Source: Streptomyces rubiginosohelvolus
Lineage (GTDB): Bacteria; Actinomycetota; Actinomycetes; Streptomycetales; Streptomycetaceae
DNA: 64,000 nt
Direction of reading: 5' to 3'
Assembly (NCBI RefSeq): GCF_014649875.1
Contig: NZ_BMTW01000003.1
Span: forward strand, 62,001-126,000
Positions within the stretch are counted from its first letter, which is position 1. Each line of letters opens with the position of its first letter. This document shows, piece by piece, positions 6,316-46,382 of the stretch. The notes under the pieces were generated by a model, which saw only the letters and a list, made by a program, of their open reading frames with translations, was not told the origin of the DNA and ran no database searches. A program made the translations under genes and the position numbers.

Positions 6316-7092
6316 TCACACTCGTGCCGCGGGGGCGAGCCCCTGCAGGAGGGCGGTGATGATGCGGTCCGCGAGGTCGTCGGGCAGCGGCGCGTCGGGG
6401 CGGTGCACCGTCCGGACGAGCATGGGGCCGACGAAGAGGTCGTCGATCAGCTCCACGTCGAGGTCGTCGCGCAGCTCCCCGGCGGCCACCGCGCGCCGCA
6501 CCGCCTCCACCATCGCGAGGCGGCGGGGGGCGATGACCGTGCCGTGGTACTCGTTCCACAGCTTCGGGTGGCTCTTCATCTGGGCGAAGATGTTGTGCAG
6601 CAGCGCCGAGGAGCGCTGGGCGAGGCCCCGGGTGCGCAGGGATTCCAGCATGACGCGGAGGTCGGCGAGGCCCTCGGTGCCGGAGACCGGCGGGTCGTCG
6701 GGCTCCATGTCCCGTACGACGTCGACGAACAGCTCCTCCTTGTCCGACCAGCGGCGGTAGATCGTGGCCTTGCCGACGCCGGCCGTGCGGGCGATGCGCT
6801 CGATGGAGAGGCCCGCGAGCGGTTCGCCCGCCTCCAGGAGGGCGATGACGGCGTCCAGGATCGCCCGTTCCGCCGCCGCGGAGCGGGGGCGTCCGCGGCG
6901 CGGCTCCGGATCGGGCGTTCCGGGCGGGGGCCCGGGCGGAACCTCTGCCGCCGTCCCGGCCGACGCCCCATGCGGAGACCCTGCCGCCGTCCCGGCCGAC
7001 GCCCCGGCGGGCATCCCGTCCGGAGCCCCGGGCGACCGGTCGCCCCCGCTCCGTGCCCCGTGCCGGTCCCGCTCGCCGTCCTGGCCTTGCAC
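6316..7092 (-). CDS. TetR-family repressor of the adjacent DHA2 exporter
   Basis: Likely local drug-responsive repressor. After about 65 low-complexity residues comes a clear TetR DNA-binding domain, RRGRPRSAAAERAILDA followed by the HTH LSIERIARTAGVGKATIYRRW. The ligand-binding half (AQMKSHPKLWNEYH and onward) resembles the TetR_C_11-type domain. The gene lies 142 bp downstream of the DHA2 MFS gene in the same direction, the usual exporter-repressor operon. The GTG at 7092 is weak; ATG 7014 is an alternative. The N-terminal tail contains a perfect 25-bp direct repeat (6945-6969 and 6981-7005), 36 bp apart and in frame, which duplicates GASAGTAA. The 19-bp palindrome at 8867-8885 is the best candidate binding site. 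Confidence 0.85.
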   Translation of the reverse strand: MQGQDGERDRHGARSGGDRSPGAPDGMPAGASAGTAAGSPHGASAGTAAEVPPGPPPGTPDPEPRRGRPRSAAAERAILDAVIALLEAGEPLAGLSIERIARTAGVGKATIYRRWSDKEELFVDVVRDMEPDDPPVSGTEGLADLRVMLESLRTRGLAQRSSALLHNIFAQMKSHPKLWNEYHGTVIAPRRLAMVEAVRRAVAAGELRDDLDVELIDDLFVGPMLVRTVHRPDAPLPDDLADRIITALLQGLAPAARV

Positions 7093-7210: not shown

Positions 7211-7249
7211 TCAGCGGGTCAGCGGCTCAGCGGCTCAGCGGCTCAGCTG
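7211..7249. repeat. 8-bp microsatellite (TCAGCGGC) at the stop codon of the DHA2 gene
   Basis: About five tandem copies of an 8-bp unit (TCAGCGGG, then TCAGCGGC three times, then TCAGCTG). On the minus strand the unit reads GCCGCTGA, and the MFS gene stops at a TGA inside the fourth unit (7235-7237). The same repeat ends the gene at 30029. Confidence 0.9.
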
Positions 7250-8842
7250 TTCCGCCGGGGGGCGGGCTTCCTCGGGGGCCTCGGTCGTCGCCGGGGGCCG
7301 GCCCGGCAGGAACAGGCCGACGACCACCGCGCCGATCAGGGCGACGGCCGCCGAGCCGAGCGCGGTCACGTGCATGGCGCTGATGAACGCGTCGTTGGCG
7401 GCGGCGGCCAGCGGCTTTCCGGCCACCGGGCCGAGCTTCTCCGCGACGCCGAGCGTGGCCTCGATGGACTCGCCCGCCACGTCCCTGGCCCCGGCCGGCA
7501 CCGCGCCGAGGTGACCCTCGATGTCGCCCCGGTAGACGGTGGAGAGCACCGAGCCGAGCACCGCGATCCCGAGCGCCCCGCCGACCTGGCGGAAGGTGTT
7601 GTTGATGGCCGAACCGGAACCGGCCTTCTCACGGGGCAGCGCCTGCATCACGGCGACGGTGACGGGCGGCATGATGTGCGCCATCCCGGTGCCCTGGACG
7701 AAGAAGACGAGGCACATCACCCACACCGGCGTACCGGCGTCGAACAGGGCGAACGACGCGAGTCCGGCCGCGACGAGCAGCATGCCGACCGTGCAGACCG
7801 CGCGGGCGCCGAAGCGGTCGACGACCAGCCGGGCCCGGGGCGCGAAGATCATCTGGGCGGCCGCGAGCGGAACGATCAGCAGGCCCGACTCCAGGGCGGT
7901 GTAGCCGCGCACGCTCTGGAGGTAGAAGGCGGAGAAGAACGTCACGCCCATGAGGGCGAAGAAGACCAGCGCGATGGCGGCGACGGCGGCGGAGAACGCG
8001 GGCTTCCGGAAGTACGTGATGTCGATGGCCGGGTGGCTGCTGCGCTTCTCGTGCCAGACGAATCCGGCCAGGACGAGCAGCCCGCCGGCGATGGCGAGGA
8101 GGACGGTGGCGTCGGTGAAGTCGGCCAGTTCGCCGCCCCGGATGATCCCGTACACCAGCAGGACCAGGCCCACGATGGAGAGGGCGACGCCCAGCGGGTC
8201 GACCTTGCCGGGCTTCGGGTCGCGGGAGTCGGGGACCAGGACCGCCATCGCGATCAGGGCGATCACGACGACGGGGACGTTCACCAGGAAGATCGAGCCC
8301 CACCAGAAGTGCTCCAGGAGCAGTCCGCCGGTGATCGGGCCGATGGCGATGCCGAGGCCGACGCTGCCCGCCCAGATGCCGATGGCCTTGGGCTGTTCGT
8401 CGCGCTCGAAGACGTTCACCAGGACGGCGAGGGTGGCGGGCATCACGAAGGCGGCGCCGAAGCCCATCAGCGCCCGCCAGGTGATGAGCTCACCGGGCGA
8501 GGCGGAGAAGGCGGCCAGCGCGGAGCCGAGGCCGAAGACCAGGATGCCGGCGAGGAGGACCTTCTTTCGGCCGATCCGGTCGCCGAGCAGGCCCGCGGTG
8601 AACAGCAGTCCGGCGAAGACGAGCGTGTAGGAGTTGATCGCCCACTCCAGCTCGCTCTGGGTGGCGCCGATGCCGGTGGGGGCGGGGCTCGCGATCGTCT
8701 TGACCGCGACGTTCAGGATCGAGTTGTCCAGCACCACGATGAGCAGGCTGAACATGAGGACGGCGAGGATCCACCAGCGGCGGCGGTGGATCGCCTCGGG
8801 AACACGGGGCGCGGCGGCGGGAGCGCCGGACGGTATGGGCAT
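7235..8842 (-). CDS. DHA2-family MFS multidrug exporter (14 TM)
   Basis: Predicted proton antiporter for cationic drugs or antibiotics (EmrB/QacA type). It has 535 residues and 14 hydrophobic segments. TM1 contains the DHA2 signature region [14 protein letters not shown], and the loop between TM2 and TM3 reads GDRIGRKK. The first 20 residues are a Pro/Ala tail. ATG 8842 has TAGGCT 6 bp upstream (8849-8854) and no Shine-Dalgarno, implying a leaderless transcript whose -35 region lies in the 19-bp palindrome at 8867-8885. The C-terminal LSR-stop is encoded by the 8-bp microsatellite. The TetR gene follows in the same direction. Confidence 0.92.
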
Positions 8843-22502: not shown

Positions 22503-24113
22503 TCAGGCGGTGGTGTCGCGGCGGCGGCGCGCCGCGATCACGATACCGGCGCCGGCCGCCACGACCACGCCGGACGCGGCGATCAGGGCGCCGGTCGGGA
22601 CGTCGGAGCCGGTGGCCGCCAGGGAGCCGGAGCCGCCGACCGAACCGCCGGTGGAGCCGCCGCCGACCGTGCCGCCGCCGGTGGTCGAACCGCCCGCCGT
22701 GGAACCGCCGGTGGAGCCCGAACCGCCGGTGGAGCCGGAGCCGCCGGTGGAGCCGGAGCCGCCGGTGGAGCCGCCCGGGAGCTGGGCGTCCTTGTCGACG
22801 GAGACCGCGACGTTCAGTGCGTCGAGCGCCTCGCCCTTCTTGTAGAAGCCGCCGAACGCCTTGGCGCCGTCGGTGGTGAGCGTCGCCGGGACGTCTCGGA
22901 GGTTCACGATGCCGCCCTTGGCGGCGAGCGCGCCGGCGGGCACCTTCAGGTCGGCGAAGGACAGGCCGGTGAACTTGCTGACCTTGCCGGTCTGCTGGTC
23001 CTTGGTGGAGACGTCGGCGAGGAGCGTGCCGGAGGTGCCCTCGATGTCGACCTTCAGGTTGCTGAGGGACAGGTCGAGGACGTACGCGCCCTTGGTCTCG
23101 TGGCCGAGGAAGCGCACCTTGCCCTGGAACGCGGCGTCGAGGGTGTTCTTGTCGGCGTCGAGGCGGCCGGTGGCCTTGGTGAAGCGGTAGCTGTCGCCGT
23201 TGTCGGACGCGCCGCCGCTCGTCACGATCTTGCCGTGCGCGATCGGGCCGACCACGTAGTCGCGGAACTTCTCCCTGACGCCCCAGTCGAGATTGCCGTC
23301 GACGACCGGGCCGCTGACGGGCGCGGCGGTCTCGGAGGCGGTCGGGGCGGGCTCGGTGCTGGGCTTCTCGGTGGGCTTGCCCGTCGGCTTGTCGGTGGGC
23401 TTGTCCGTGGGCTTGTCCGTGGGCTTATCGGTGGGCTTATCGGTGGGCTTGTCCGTGGGGGGTGTCGACGGGGTCTTCACGGACAGCGTCGCCGGGTCGA
23501 GCTCGGTGCCCACCGGGTACATGCCGCCGAATGCGTCGGAGCCGTCGGCGGTCAGCTTGGCGGGGATGTCGGCGAAGACCATCGCGCCGCCCGCGCCGCC
23601 GCCCCGCTTGGCCTTGGTCATGTCCAGATCGGCGATGGGCGCGTCGTTCTTGCTGACGACGGTGCCGTCCATCTTCTTGCTGGTGAAGTCGGCGGTGATC
23701 GTGCCGGTCTCCCGGCCCGTGGTGACCTTGACGTCGCTCACCTGGACGTCGAGCACCCCGTGGTGGCCCTCGAACCGGACGCCGCCCTTGAACGCGGTGT
23801 CGGAGGCGTGCGTCCCGGTGTCGTAGGAGCCCTTGCCGTCGACGAAGGTGAACACCCCGTTGTCCGCGGCCTGCTTGGCGCCGTCCGCGAGGGTGATCTT
23901 GCCCTGCGCGATCGGGCCGACCACGTAGTCGCGGAACTTCTCCTTGATGCCCCAGTCCAGGGTTCCGTCCACCAGCTCCAGCTTCGGGGCGGCGGCGGGC
24001 GGGGCGGCCTCGGAGTTGTCGGCGGCGAGTGCGGGGAGGGAGAAGGTCGCGCCCAGGACGGCGGCCGTGGCGACGGCCGCGGCAAGGGCTATGGGGCGGC
24101 GGGTTGCTGCCAT
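22503..24113 (-). CDS. HtaA-domain surface heme-binding protein with LAXTG sorting signal
   Basis: Predicted cell-wall-attached heme receptor, 536 residues. After a signal peptide (about 1-31, ending LPALA) come two HtaA domains, each opening with a near-identical block (TLDWGIKEKFRDYVVGPIAQGK and NLDWGVREKFRDYVVGPIAHGK). The domains are separated by a Thr-Asp-Lys-Pro repeat linker (DNA 23361-23458). A Gly/Ser/Thr repeat stalk (DNA about 22680-22780) leads to LAATG, a hydrophobic helix and RRRR, which is a sortase class E-type LAXTG signal. Tyr/His heme ligands in HtaA domains are not assignable by eye. AGGAG lies 10 bp before ATG 24113. It is cotranscribed with the second HtaA gene upstream, under the iron box at 25696. 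Confidence 0.9.
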   Translation of the reverse strand: MAATRRPIALAAAVATAAVLGATFSLPALAADNSEAAPPAAAPKLELVDGTLDWGIKEKFRDYVVGPIAQGKITLADGAKQAADNGVFTFVDGKGSYDTGTHASDTAFKGGVRFEGHHGVLDVQVSDVKVTTGRETGTITADFTSKKMDGTVVSKNDAPIADLDMTKAKRGGGAGGAMVFADIPAKLTADGSDAFGGMYPVGTELDPATLSVKTPSTPPTDKPTDKPTDKPTDKPTDKPTDKPTGKPTEKPSTEPAPTASETAAPVSGPVVDGNLDWGVREKFRDYVVGPIAHGKIVTSGGASDNGDSYRFTKATGRLDADKNTLDAAFQGKVRFLGHETKGAYVLDLSLSNLKVDIEGTSGTLLADVSTKDQQTGKVSKFTGLSFADLKVPAGALAAKGGIVNLRDVPATLTTDGAKAFGGFYKKGEALDALNVAVSVDKDAQLPGGSTGGSGSTGGSGSTGGSGSTGGSTAGGSTTGGGTVGGGSTGGSVGGSGSLAATGSDVPTGALIAASGVVVAAGAGIVIAARRRRDTTA

Positions 24114-28967: not shown

Positions 28968-29990
28968 ATGACGAGACACCCTGGGCTGGGTCGGCTGACG
29001 GCGGGGCTCGCGACGGCGACGGTGCTGTGCGTGACGGCGACCGGCTGTGTGACGGTGCACGGGGAGCTGGAAGTGCTGCCGGGGGCGAAGAAGTCCGAGG
29101 CCGCCCAGGCGCTCAAGGACTTCACCGACGCCTACAACGCGGCGGACAAGGCGTTCGATCCGGCGCTGGACGCGGACCGGGTGACGGGTTCGCTCGGCGC
29201 GATCAATCAGGCCGGGTTGAAGGCCCGGCAGACGTACAACCCCGACGGGAACAAGGCGCACAAGCCGTTGGTGCTGGACGACGCGACGTACGTCATCCCC
29301 AAGAAGGCGGGCTGGCCCCGCTGGTTCCTCGCGGACACCGACTCGAACCGGGACCAGGACGGCGGAAAGCTGGACACCCGCTGGCTGGTGGTGTTCGTGC
29401 GGACGGGCCCCGACGCGCTGTGGAAGGCGGCCTACCTCGGGGTTCTCCCGGCCTCCCAGGTGCCGGAGTTCGCCCTGGACGGGGACGGGCTCGCGACCCC
29501 GGTGAAGCCGCAGGACGACGAGCTGGCCGTGGCACCGGCGGACCTGAGCGCCTCGTACACGGGCTATCTGCAGAACGGCTCCCCGGACGTGTTCACCCCT
29601 TCCACGTCGACCTCCGGCTGGCGCGAGACGCGCCGCACCACACGGCGGGCGGGGTTTTCGTACCAGTACATCGACCAGCCGCTCACGGGCAGCACGTTCG
29701 CACCGCTGGGGCTGCGCACCGAGGACGGCGGGGCGCTGGTCTTCTTCACCAGCAAGCACTTCGAACGGCAGGTCGCCGCGAAGGGGCTGCGGCCCGAGGT
29801 CAACCCGGATGTGAAGGCGCTGCTCACCGGCGAGGTGAACAGCACCCTCACCAAGGAGCGCGTCTCCAGCCAGCTGGTGCACGTACCGCCGCGGGCCGCT
29901 GGGGCCGGTTCCGGTGCGGACACGGGCTCCGGCGGCAAGGTGCGGATGCTGAACCGGCTGCCGGGCCTGATCGCGGCGAAGGGCGAGTAG
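28968..29990 (+). CDS. Hypothetical lipoprotein
   Basis: A 340-residue secreted lipoprotein: signal helix LTAGLATATVLCVTATGC with a lipobox at TATGC, then a globular part of alternating strands and loops. Features include an opening helix (EAAQALKDFTDAYNAADKAFD), a WPRWFLADTDSNRDQDGGKLDTRWLVVFVR core and the aromatic motif SYQYIDQPLTGSTFAPLGLR. I do not recognise a named family. It lies 137 bp after hmuV in the same direction, so it might be part of the heme regulon or have its own promoter. The in-frame extension upstream through the hmuV region is spurious. Confidence 0.75.
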   Translation: MTRHPGLGRLTAGLATATVLCVTATGCVTVHGELEVLPGAKKSEAAQALKDFTDAYNAADKAFDPALDADRVTGSLGAINQAGLKARQTYNPDGNKAHKPLVLDDATYVIPKKAGWPRWFLADTDSNRDQDGGKLDTRWLVVFVRTGPDALWKAAYLGVLPASQVPEFALDGDGLATPVKPQDDELAVAPADLSASYTGYLQNGSPDVFTPSTSTSGWRETRRTTRRAGFSYQYIDQPLTGSTFAPLGLRTEDGGALVFFTSKHFERQVAAKGLRPEVNPDVKALLTGEVNSTLTKERVSSQLVHVPPRAAGAGSGADTGSGGKVRMLNRLPGLIAAKGE

Positions 29991-30004
29991 CGCCTCCGCG
30001 CTGC

Positions 30005-30044
30005 TCAGCGGCTCAGCGGCTCAGCGGCTCAGCGGCTCAGCGGC
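30005..30044. repeat. 8-bp microsatellite (TCAGCGGC x5) at the stop codon of the PrimPol-like gene
   Basis: Five perfect tandem copies of TCAGCGGC. On the minus strand each unit contains TGA, and the gene stops at the TGA in the fourth unit (30029-30031). The same unit ends the DHA2 gene at 7235. Confidence 0.92.
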
Positions 30045-30775
30045 CAGGCGATCGCGTCGTGGTCCAGCTCGCTCTGCTCGGCGCTGCCCGCGTACCGGGC
30101 GCAGGCGTCGGTGAGCGTCTCCAGCAGGGTCAGCGGGTCGGGCAGCTCGTGCTCGGGCCCGCGCACCCAGTGGACGTCCAGCTCACCGGGGAGCCGGGCG
30201 GGCGGCAGGAGGACATAGCTGCCCCGGCAGTGCCAGCGCAGGCCCGGGTGGGCGTCCAAGGTCTCGGGGTGGCAGTCCAGCTCGCAGGGCCACCACTCGT
30301 CCTCGTCCTCGGGGGTGCCGCGGGTGGCGGTGAAGAAGAGCAGACGGTCGTCGCCGGACTGCGCGACCGGGCCGACGTCGATCCCCGCGTCGAGAAGACG
30401 CTCCAGGGCGCTGAGGCCGGCGGTGAGCGGGACGTCCAGCACGTCGTGGATCATGCCGGTCGCGGTGATGAAGTTGGCCTCCGGCTGACCGGCGGCCCAG
30501 CGCTCGATCTGGGCCCGGTCGGTGGTCGACTGCGTCTGCCAGGCGAAGGAGACGGGATGCCGGGCGGGGGTGGGACAGCCGATGCGTTCGCACGAACATC
30601 GGTATCCGACGGGGTGGGCAGCGGGCGCGATCGGCATGCCCGCGTCGGCGACGGCCACGAGCATCGCCACCCGGGCCGACTCGTCGGTCTCGGCCCCGGA
30701 TGATTTGGGACGTCGCCGCAGCCACTGGGAGATCCTGCTCTCTGTGCCGCGGAAACGGCCGGAATCGGCGCCCAT
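30029..30775 (-). CDS. PrimPol-like (bifunctional primase/polymerase N-terminal domain) protein, probably degenerate
   Basis: A 248-residue protein resembling the archaeo-eukaryotic primase (PrimPol) fold: a cysteine cluster (YRCSCERIGCPTPARHPVSFAWQT), the TTDRAQIERWAAGQPEANFITATG segment and HDVLDVPLTAGLSALERLL. The canonical motif I has an hDhD pair; here the equivalent reads DVLDV (D-x-x-D). The helicase partner usually fused to such domains is also missing. It is therefore likely not an active primase, and may be a nucleotide-sensing or DNA-binding relative specific to actinomycetes. It is monocistronic, and its C-terminal LSR-stop is encoded by the 8-bp microsatellite. Confidence 0.7.
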   Translation of the reverse strand: MGADSGRFRGTESRISQWLRRRPKSSGAETDESARVAMLVAVADAGMPIAPAAHPVGYRCSCERIGCPTPARHPVSFAWQTQSTTDRAQIERWAAGQPEANFITATGMIHDVLDVPLTAGLSALERLLDAGIDVGPVAQSGDDRLLFFTATRGTPEDEDEWWPCELDCHPETLDAHPGLRWHCRGSYVLLPPARLPGELDVHWVRGPEHELPDPLTLLETLTDACARYAGSAEQSELDHDAIAWPLSR

Positions 30776-44027: not shown

Positions 44028-45509
44028 ATGCCCTCACCCTCACCCACTCCCCGGACCGCATCCTCCGACATCGGTCCCGCGGTGGGCCCCACGACCGCTC
44101 CGACCGCCGCCTCCCTCCGCATGTCCAGCCGCCAGAAACTCGTCCTGGCCCTGCTGCTCGGCTCACAGTTCATGATCGCGGTGGATTTCTCGATCCTGAA
44201 CGTGGCGCTGCCCGTCGTCGGGGAGGGGCTCGGCTTCTCCCTCGCCGGTCTCCAGTGGATCGCCACGTCCTTCGCGCTCGCCGCCGCCGGGTTCACCCTG
44301 CTCTTCGGCCGCGTCGCCGACCTCGTCGGCCGCAAGAACCTGTTCGTCGGCGGCATGGCCGTCCTCGGCCTCTCCTCCGTGCTCGGCGGCCTCGCCACCT
44401 CGCCCGAGGTGCTGCTCACGGCCCGGGTACTGCAGGGCCTGGCCACCGCGGCCGTCACCCCGGCCGGACTCGCGCTGCTGACCACCGCGTTCAGGGAGGG
44501 GCCGCTGCGTGAACGGGCGCTGGGGCTCAACGGGGCCCTGATGTCGGCCGGGTTCACCGCCGGGGCGATCCTCGGCGGGCTCCTGACGGACCTGCTCTCC
44601 TGGCGCTGGGCCTTCTTCATCAACGTCCCGGTGGCGGCACTGGTCGTGATCCTGGCTCCGTCCGTGATCGCCGACTCCCGGCCGGAGGACCGCCCGAAGC
44701 TGGACGTGCCCGGAGCCATCACCGTCACCGGCGGGCTGCTGCTCCTCGTCCTCGGGCTGACCCGGGCCGGCGAGACCGGCTGGACCAGGCCGACCACCCT
44801 GGCAGCGCTGGCCGCCGGAGCCGCCCTCCTGATCGCGTTCGTCCGCATCGAGCAGCGAGCTGCCGCGCCGCTCGTCCCGATCCGCATCCTGAAGCGGCGC
44901 AGCGTCGTCTGGGGCAACACCGCCGGGCTGATCGCCTTCGTCACCGAGACCTCGCTGGTCTTCCTGCTGACCCTCTATCTCCAGGAGGTCCTGGGCTACT
45001 CCGCACTCGCCACCGGGCTCGCGTTCGGCGTGCTCGGCGCGGGCACGGTCGTCGGTGGTGTGCTCGGCGGACGGGCGGTGGGCCGCTTCGGCAACCGCCG
45101 CGCCATCGTCCTGGGCGGCACCGTCCAGGCGGCCGCCACCCTCTCCCTCGTGGTGCTCGGCACCTCCGGGGCGTGGATCTGGCTCCTGCTGGCGGCCACC
45201 TTCGTCGGCGGCGTCGGCAACATGCTGATGATCGTCGGGTTCATGGTCACGGCGACCTCGGGCCTGCCGGACGAGGAGCAGGGGCGGGCCACCGGGCTGG
45301 CGACGATGACGCAGCAGGTGGGCATCGCCCTCGGCATTCCGGTGATGAGCGCGGTGGTCACCGCCCGGATGGGGGCCGCGAACGGGCCCGCCGCGGTACT
45401 GTCCGGCGTCTCCACCGCGATCCTGGTCAACTCCGCGCTGGTCCTGGCCGGTGCCGTACTGGCCGGGTACTTCCTGGCGGGAGGGGCCCGGAGGCGGGAG
45501 GACGGGTGA
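44028..45509 (+). CDS. DHA2-family MFS exporter (14 TM)
   Basis: A 493-residue multidrug-type exporter. After a 28-residue Pro/Thr/Ala tail, TM1 carries the DHA2 pattern FMIAVDFSILNVALPVVGEGLGF, and the loop between TM2 and TM3 reads GRVADLVGRKNLFVGG. Motif C-like glycine runs (AGFTAGAILGGLLTDLLSWRWAFFINVPVAAL) are present. GGAAGG lies about 9 bp before ATG 44028. It is divergent from the TetR gene and probably repressed by it. Confidence 0.92.
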   Translation: MPSPSPTPRTASSDIGPAVGPTTAPTAASLRMSSRQKLVLALLLGSQFMIAVDFSILNVALPVVGEGLGFSLAGLQWIATSFALAAAGFTLLFGRVADLVGRKNLFVGGMAVLGLSSVLGGLATSPEVLLTARVLQGLATAAVTPAGLALLTTAFREGPLRERALGLNGALMSAGFTAGAILGGLLTDLLSWRWAFFINVPVAALVVILAPSVIADSRPEDRPKLDVPGAITVTGGLLLLVLGLTRAGETGWTRPTTLAALAAGAALLIAFVRIEQRAAAPLVPIRILKRRSVVWGNTAGLIAFVTETSLVFLLTLYLQEVLGYSALATGLAFGVLGAGTVVGGVLGGRAVGRFGNRRAIVLGGTVQAAATLSLVVLGTSGAWIWLLLAATFVGGVGNMLMIVGFMVTATSGLPDEEQGRATGLATMTQQVGIALGIPVMSAVVTARMGAANGPAAVLSGVSTAILVNSALVLAGAVLAGYFLAGGARRREDG

Positions 45510-45561
45510 GCCGGTCCTGCGCCCGGGGCCGGCCCGGAAAGCGGGAACAGACCGGAGGGCG

Positions 45562-45654
45562 GGACGGCCCGGGAAGGCGGGGACGGCCCGGGAAGGCGGG
45601 GACGGCCCGGGAAGACGGGGACGGCTCAGGAACCAGGACCGGCCCGGGAAGCGG
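45562..45654. repeat. 19-bp tandem repeats upstream of the GNAT gene
   Basis: Five head-to-tail units: two identical GGACGGCCCGGGAAGGCGG (45562-45580, 45581-45599), one with a single change (45600-45618), and two diverging copies (45619-45637, 45638-45654). They fill the gap between the MFS stop and the GNAT ribosome site. Confidence 0.9.
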
Positions 45655-45683: not shown

Positions 45684-46382
45684 ATGGCTGCTCCCGAGCC
45701 TGACCCCGACCGCGCCCCCGGCACCGGCTCCACCCCCGGCACCCCCGGCACCACCGCCGACACCGACGACAACCCCGGCTCGGCCCCCGACACCACCCCC
45801 GGCCCCGAGCCGCTGACCGTCCCGAGCATGTCCGCGGGTCCGGACTTCGTCCTGCGCCCCTGGGAGATGAGCGACCTCCCGCTGATCCGCGAGGCCTCGC
45901 TCGACCCGTACATCCCGCTCATCACCACGATCCCGGCCCCCTACTCCGAAGCGGCGGCGGAGGCGTTCGTCCGCAGGCAGTGGGAGCGCGCGGCCACCGG
46001 CGCGGGGTACCCCTTCGCCATCGTGCGCTCCCGGGACCGGCGCCCGGTCGGCGCGATCGGGCTCTGGCTCCGGGAGCTGCCCGAGGGCCGCGCCTCCCTC
46101 GGCTACTGGCTCACCGACCTCGCCCGCGGCCAGGGCGTCGCCCGGGCCGCGCTGCGTACGGTCACGGGCTGGGCCCTGCGCGACCTCGGCGTCCCGCGCC
46201 TCCAGCTCTACATCGAGCCGTGGAACACCGCCTCCGCCCGGATCGCCGAGGACATCGGCTTCCGGCGGGAGGGCCTGCTGCGCGGCTGGCAGCAGGTGGG
46301 CGACGAGCGGCGGGACATGGCCGTGTACGCGCTGCTGAACAGCGACGGACCGGCGGATGGCCGGGCGGTAACCGCACACTGA
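45684..46382 (+). CDS. GNAT-family N-acetyltransferase (RimJ/RimL type)
   Basis: A 232-residue acetyltransferase. The first 48 residues are Pro/Thr/Asp-rich and unlike the family; the GNAT domain follows (FVLRPWEMSDLPLIREAS, GAIGLWLRELPEGRASLGYWLTDLARGQGVARAAL for acetyl-CoA binding, LYIEPWNTASARIAEDIGFRREG). GGGAGGA precedes ATG 45684. ATG 45828 would give a domain-only protein but has no ribosome site. Substrates of this group range from ribosomal proteins to antibiotics and cannot be told apart here. Confidence 0.85.
   Translation: MAAPEPDPDRAPGTGSTPGTPGTTADTDDNPGSAPDTTPGPEPLTVPSMSAGPDFVLRPWEMSDLPLIREASLDPYIPLITTIPAPYSEAAAEAFVRRQWERAATGAGYPFAIVRSRDRRPVGAIGLWLRELPEGRASLGYWLTDLARGQGVARAALRTVTGWALRDLGVPRLQLYIEPWNTASARIAEDIGFRREGLLRGWQQVGDERRDMAVYALLNSDGPADGRAVTAH

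Follow-up and report, generated by a model that had tools for sequence, protein, structure and literature searches.

Two octamer microsatellites over Streptomyces stop codons and their probable origin in the last codons of the genes they end

How does one and the same octamer repeat come to lie over the stop codons of two genes and to close every reading frame behind them? We addressed this question in a 64,000-nucleotide stretch of the Streptomyces rubiginosohelvolus genome (contig NZ_BMTW01000003.1, positions 62,001 to 126,000; hereafter the window), in which two short arrays overlap the ends of a gene for an efflux-type transporter and of a Prim-Pol domain gene. An earlier interpretation made from the letters alone (the sequence-only reading) had proposed a spreading 3'-end element acting as a frame-independent stop. 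Our results point with good confidence to a different origin: each array is very probably a microsatellite born in place from an octamer in its own gene's last codons. The best reading we can offer is that of near-neutral slippage microsatellites nucleated at stop codons.

The arrays, the genes and the codons from which the arrays may have grown (seeds) are the following.

7211 to 7250, minus strand: array A, five octamer units, GCCGCTGA on the minus strand, the outer two imperfect
30005 to 30044, minus strand: array B, five octamer units, all perfect, GCCGCTGA on the minus strand
7235 to 8842, minus strand: MFS efflux-type transporter gene (MFS_1; above the NCBIfam DHA2/EmrB subfamily cut-off)
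30029 to 30775, minus strand: Prim-Pol domain gene (PF09250)
7235 to 7246, minus strand: seed of array A, CTG AGC CGC TGA (Leu-Ser-Arg-stop), also present in a 98%-identical orthologue
30029 to 30046, minus strand: seed of array B, TGG CCG CTG AGC CGC TGA (Trp-Pro-Leu-Ser-Arg-stop), equal to TG plus two octamers

The layout described in the sequence-only reading was borne out. Each array holds five TCAGCGGC-type units; those of array A start at 7211 (TCAGCGGG), at 7219 and 7227 (both perfect), at 7235 (perfect, with the stop) and at 7243 (TCAGCTGT, imperfect). The stop codon of the MFS gene (7235-7237; C-terminus AEQLSR*) lies within array A and that of the Prim-Pol gene (30029-30031; C-terminus WPLSR*) within array B. 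Both fall in the fourth unit from the left, which is the second TGA from the gene side, because both genes end in CTG AGC CGC TGA and carry three further units behind. Read on the minus strand, each array has its five TGAs in frames 2, 1, 0, 2 and 1, so that no frame stays open. Allowing up to 2 mismatches, the two-unit pattern matched 8 times in the window against a shuffle mean of 0.23, and Tandem Repeats Finder (score 40) reported no period-8 repeats there other than arrays A and B. Both arrays are therefore tandem repeats of a short unit that exceed chance expectation, and they most likely belong to a known kind, the bacterial microsatellites.

The Prim-Pol gene, present in 61 of the 61 genomes searched, allowed us to follow array B across relatives. 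Its end could be read in 50 of them, from which all unseeded rows were taken; seeded rows came also from seed-pattern matches at 29 loci, 7 of which fell outside Prim-Pol. In the nearest relatives of the window the gene ends in WPLSR*, with and without arrays. Since TGG CCG CTG AGC CGC TGA is itself TG followed by two copies of GCCGCTGA, the seed is an ordinary gene end, and some relatives indeed carry the seed of array B without any further unit. Where the same residues are written with CTC for CTG, which removes the first TGA, none of the 5 rows has an array (one of them stops with TAG). Across 67 distinct rows, the stop is followed by one more unit, identical at 7 or more of 8 positions, in 10 of 24 seeded rows and in none of 43 unseeded ones (Fisher's test, P = 8e-6); two seeded rows scored as array-free carry mutated units. 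Genus-wide, the seed pattern was matched in 31 of 392 genomes, in some of them at other genes, and the seed plus one more degenerate unit in 10 of 392.

The unit sequences themselves point to a local source. Array units, GCCGCTGA included, copy the synonymous codons upstream of them and differ by lineage: the arrays of other relatives use GTCGTTGA, GCCGTTGA or GTCGCTGA, each copying the synonymous codons of its own species. On a gene tree built with the last codons removed, the array label requires at least 7 changes; therefore, the array has been gained or lost repeatedly. Several Prim-Pol arrays are visibly decayed, their TGA having become TGG or CGA. Loci L207, L209, L245 and L252 likewise display the Prim-Pol end as a recurrent microsatellite site in the genus, with lineage-specific units and TGA decay. 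This gene end thus offers a natural experiment in repeated microsatellite growth, in which the unit can be read from the gene's own codons.

At the MFS gene end, the closest of the orthologues compared (98%) provides a shorter version of array A. It reads CAG CTG AGC CGC TGA, then CCCGCTGA, then CCCGACGAGG, while the window reads CAG CTG AGC CGC TGA, GCCGCTGA twice, CCCGCTGA, then CCGACGAGG: two units more and one C fewer, with the site otherwise equal. Copy number therefore varies between close relatives at one site, as it does among the Prim-Pol rows. Among the seven close genomes that we picked from the Prim-Pol tree, the MFS gene was found in 6 at the threshold used. In one further relative a short degenerate run follows an LTR* end; a third is array-free and ends in the LSR* seed. 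The tails of the 29 MFS orthologues besides the window's own vary, and none of them carries the array.

How such arrays would form can be proposed from the genetic code itself. When Leu-Ser-Arg-stop is written as YTG AGY CGN TGA, TGA recurs at a spacing of 8, which would provide the seed; replication slippage, or short tandem duplication, would then add octamer copies to it. Copies would pile up downstream of the stop because a change of 8 bp there leaves the protein intact, while inside the gene it shifts the frame. The presence of TGA in all frames would be a by-product, since the unit includes the stop codon. While the seeds, the local units, their repeated appearance in the genus and the relative with two units fewer are observations, we infer both the copying mechanism and its neutrality.

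We then considered whether arrays of this type favour stop codons in general, calling gene ends with a purpose-written codon-usage gene caller. On an annotated Streptomyces plasmid stretch, and leaving out two genes cut by its ends, the caller recovered 14 of 15 complete annotated stops and none extra. A stop is held by 16 of the 25 arrays from the genus (without the window), by 61 of 107 non-edge arrays of a broad genome-contig set among the matches listed, by 23 of 47 TCA-S5 arrays (defined by four TCAs, three full units) from 41 relatives, the window's two excluded, and by 18 of 48 classified heptamer arrays (54 places listed), which amounts to 38-64% of classified arrays over the four sets. 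As a baseline we took 83 single TCA-S5 octamers in non-coding DNA, 34 from the window (arrays masked) and 49 from loci; of these, 20 overlap a stop (9 and 11, respectively). The excess over this baseline was significant for the genus (Fisher's test, P = 5e-4), the genome-contig set (4e-6) and the TCA-S5 set (6e-3), although the genome-contig set is taxonomically broad and the baseline comes from Streptomyces and relatives. In the genome-contig set, 14 of 121 arrays lying within 300 bases of a locus end were left out (3 of the 14 hold a stop). The three octamer sets are not independent, because 9 arrays are shared between the genus and genome-contig sets and L022 between the genus and S5 sets. 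Prim-Pol ends make up 4 of the 16 stop-holding genus arrays; without them the share is 12 of 21 (P = 0.007). The enrichment at gene 3' ends that the sequence-only reading had anticipated thus holds, for this and for other TGA-bearing octamers. It is modest, at two to three times the share. Either an absence of constraint on the DNA directly downstream of genes or more frequent array birth at such places may account for it.

The orientation test suggested in the sequence-only reading is in part circular, because a stop can be held by the TGA strand alone. In intergenic arrays flanked by co-directional genes, this strand agrees with the genes in 25 cases and disagrees in 14 (P = 0.11, from partly overlapping sets). 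We also asked which TGA of the array, counted from the gene side, is the stop. Among 90 arrays it was the first TGA 60 times, the second 27 times and the third 3 times, where random entry would make each equally frequent; therefore, most such arrays begin at the stop codon itself. The two arrays of the window are of the second-TGA kind.

A rival explanation is that arrays so placed are selected as back-up terminators: with TGA in all frames they would stop ribosomes that read through or slip out of frame, in a GC-rich genome where chance stops are scarce. The closure of all three frames and the excess of stop-overlapping octamer arrays over what single non-coding octamers predict would both fit. 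However, in decayed units on the downstream side, the only side used in this test, mismatches fall in the TGA in 23 of 138 cases at gene ends versus 17 of 123 between genes (P = 0.61), so the stops are not specially kept and the purifying selection expected of fail-safe stops is not seen. Upstream of the core, 38 of 45 mismatches at gene ends versus 62 of 141 between genes fall in the TGA, a difference that is expected because the walk enters coding sequence and because of the way units are cut. Moreover, 14 of the 24 seeded Prim-Pol rows do without a downstream unit at the 7-of-8 threshold. Additional (fail-safe) stop codons likewise lie downstream of a primary stop, and a survey of eubacteria (PMC6764699) reports that convincing signs of selection for extra in-frame stops were lacking. 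Nothing we found indicates selection for back-up stops, and we consider this explanation quite improbable. The arrays close all frames, as the sequence-only reading held, and are over-represented at gene ends, but its view that they act as a frame-independent stop is not supported by these data, nor, as described below, is the idea that they spread.

The exact 16-base two-unit pattern occurs only in arrays A and B in the whole draft genome (7,546,942 bases, 39 contigs), with 6 overlapping matches, all forward, and 0 for the reversed control; as a scan for this exact pattern, it would let two-unit arrays in another rotation or with mismatches escape. Identical unit, orientation and phase at two genes 22.8 kb apart, with no other genome copy found, might suggest a repeat element copied from one gene end to another. 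Nevertheless, such an element would have only these two sites. Outside the repeat, the sequences around the two arrays show no alignment to each other (E above 0.04 for whatever matches remain), relatives already hold the seeds and a shorter array in place, and units differ in other genomes. We thus found neither the many genome copies nor the independence of unit and flanks from the local gene that a mobile element would show. We rejected the spreading element, which is largely refuted by these findings and which we rate as extremely improbable. A run of nearly three units (23 bases) was present in 26 of 392 genus genomes, the source genome included (reversed pattern, 1), and also in very different bacteria, in at least 117 stretches. 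Three more arrays that contain TGA but have different units, the octamer TCAGCCCG and the heptamers TCAGCGG and TCAGCCG, are present in the source genome.

G000:C22:58944-58978 (L303): TGA-bearing array
G000:C3:530572-530602 (L269): TGA-bearing array
G000:C28:21087-21117 (L313): TGA-bearing array

Several points weigh against an origin in place by slippage at the stop codon. Slippage itself is inferred rather than observed. Array rows are clustered on the Prim-Pol tree (7 changes versus a shuffled mean of 9.5), and while a local seed is found at both gene ends, the link between seed and array in the Prim-Pol rows was not significant in an independent-pairs test (P = 0.25-1). When only arrays whose first TGA is the stop are counted, which is fairer because a single octamer puts a stop in one frame and an array in all three, the excess at gene ends weakens (P = 0.043, 0.002 and 0.19; odds ratios 1.8 to 3.2), and heptamer arrays compared with the octamer baseline do not differ significantly (P = 0.11). 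Finally, the distance between arrays A and B, the only ones found in 7.5 Mb, is taken alone a 0.6% coincidence. Two facts soften this: such pairs were among the things looked for when windows were screened, and a Leu-Ser-Arg end happens to be common to both genes.

The arrays of the window form part of a broader class. Among 41 relatives' genomes, TCA-S5 arrays occur in 25 (49 arrays, many different units), period-7 (TCA-S4) arrays in 24 and period-10 arrays in 4, with the stop held by 3 of these 4 arrays. We therefore rejected the notion that period 8 is special, as period 7 is equally common and period 10 rarer. Stop-free ACT-S5 octamer arrays were found in 10 of 41 genomes (11 arrays: 10 intergenic, 1 touching a gene end, none called coding). 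Only 1 array was called coding among 47 TCA-S5, 48 TCA-S4 and 11 ACT-S5 arrays; hence, arrays mostly stay outside genes. The intergenic TCA:ACT ratio is 24:10 for arrays and 25:14 for single window octamers (arrays masked), so that composition explains most of the intergenic part of the TCA excess, which we rejected as a sign of function. Coding use of the opposite strand was also rejected, antisense coding being called for 1 of 107 non-edge arrays among the matches listed. In one relative a heptamer array with the unit TCAGCCG (G010:C2:838853-839016) reaches an unusual length, with 21 overlapping matches. A wider claim would be that, in GC-rich bacteria, 7-8 bp microsatellites arise preferentially at stop codons, where the final codons and the stop form a seed used again and again, as at the Prim-Pol end with its several lineage-specific arrays, and that the arrays may serve incidentally, or by weak selection, as all-frame back-ups; at present we hold this to be rather unlikely.

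The genes next to the arrays are the following.

29022 to 29990, plus strand: SCO2278-family lipoprotein gene, convergent neighbour, ending 14 bp before array B
6316 to 7092, minus strand: TetR-family regulator gene, downstream of array A

A role at the RNA level was also considered. The genes on either side of array B converge, a setting in which one would look for a terminator, and array A (z -1.72) and the plus strand of array B (z -1.66) fold somewhat better than shuffles, as a hairpin, transcription terminator or 3' processing signal might. On the other hand, the minus strand of array B folds like shuffles (z -0.64), and the unit sequences are many and different. No intrinsic-terminator-like site (stem plus U run) was found in 29900-30150, a scan that covered the surroundings of array B. 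With folding near that of shuffles and no such site around array B, we rejected the terminator or hairpin, and an RNA-level function appears very improbable.

Repeats at gene ends are also known from mycobacteria, whose mycobacterial interspersed repetitive units (MIRU) are longer and have a shared sequence at many sites. Our literature search, with most subscription journals outside its scope, returned no paper on octamer repeats at Streptomyces stop codons; the nearest describes heptameric simple sequence repeats (SSRs) of Xanthomonas and Nostoc (PMC4692102). According to that paper, their units are GGGAATC and GGGGA(C/T)T, their length and sequence vary between relatives, as in our arrays, and polymerase contact length is cited as a possible reason for heptamers. 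It also reports one unit type at many genome places, with 183 repeat sequences in one strain (PMC4692102), whereas in arrays of the window's type the unit changes by place and follows local codons. Bacterial SSR and variable-number tandem repeat (VNTR) loci, as described in PMC4060949, are likewise tandem arrays whose copy number varies between relatives. Compared with such loci in general, the stop-codon seed is the particular feature of the arrays here.

Altogether, a seemingly designed all-frame stop at two gene ends can arise from slippage at a seed supplied by the code. Such sites could serve strain typing and shed light on the accumulation of frame-breaking repeats at the ends of genes.

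The window contains other tandem repeats. The minus-strand gene at 22503-24113 has internal ones, of 12 bp at 23360-23459 (8.3 copies) and of 18 bp at 22616-22775, and a 19-bp repeat (45524-45651; 6.9 copies) lies between the called genes at 44082-45509 and 45684-46382.
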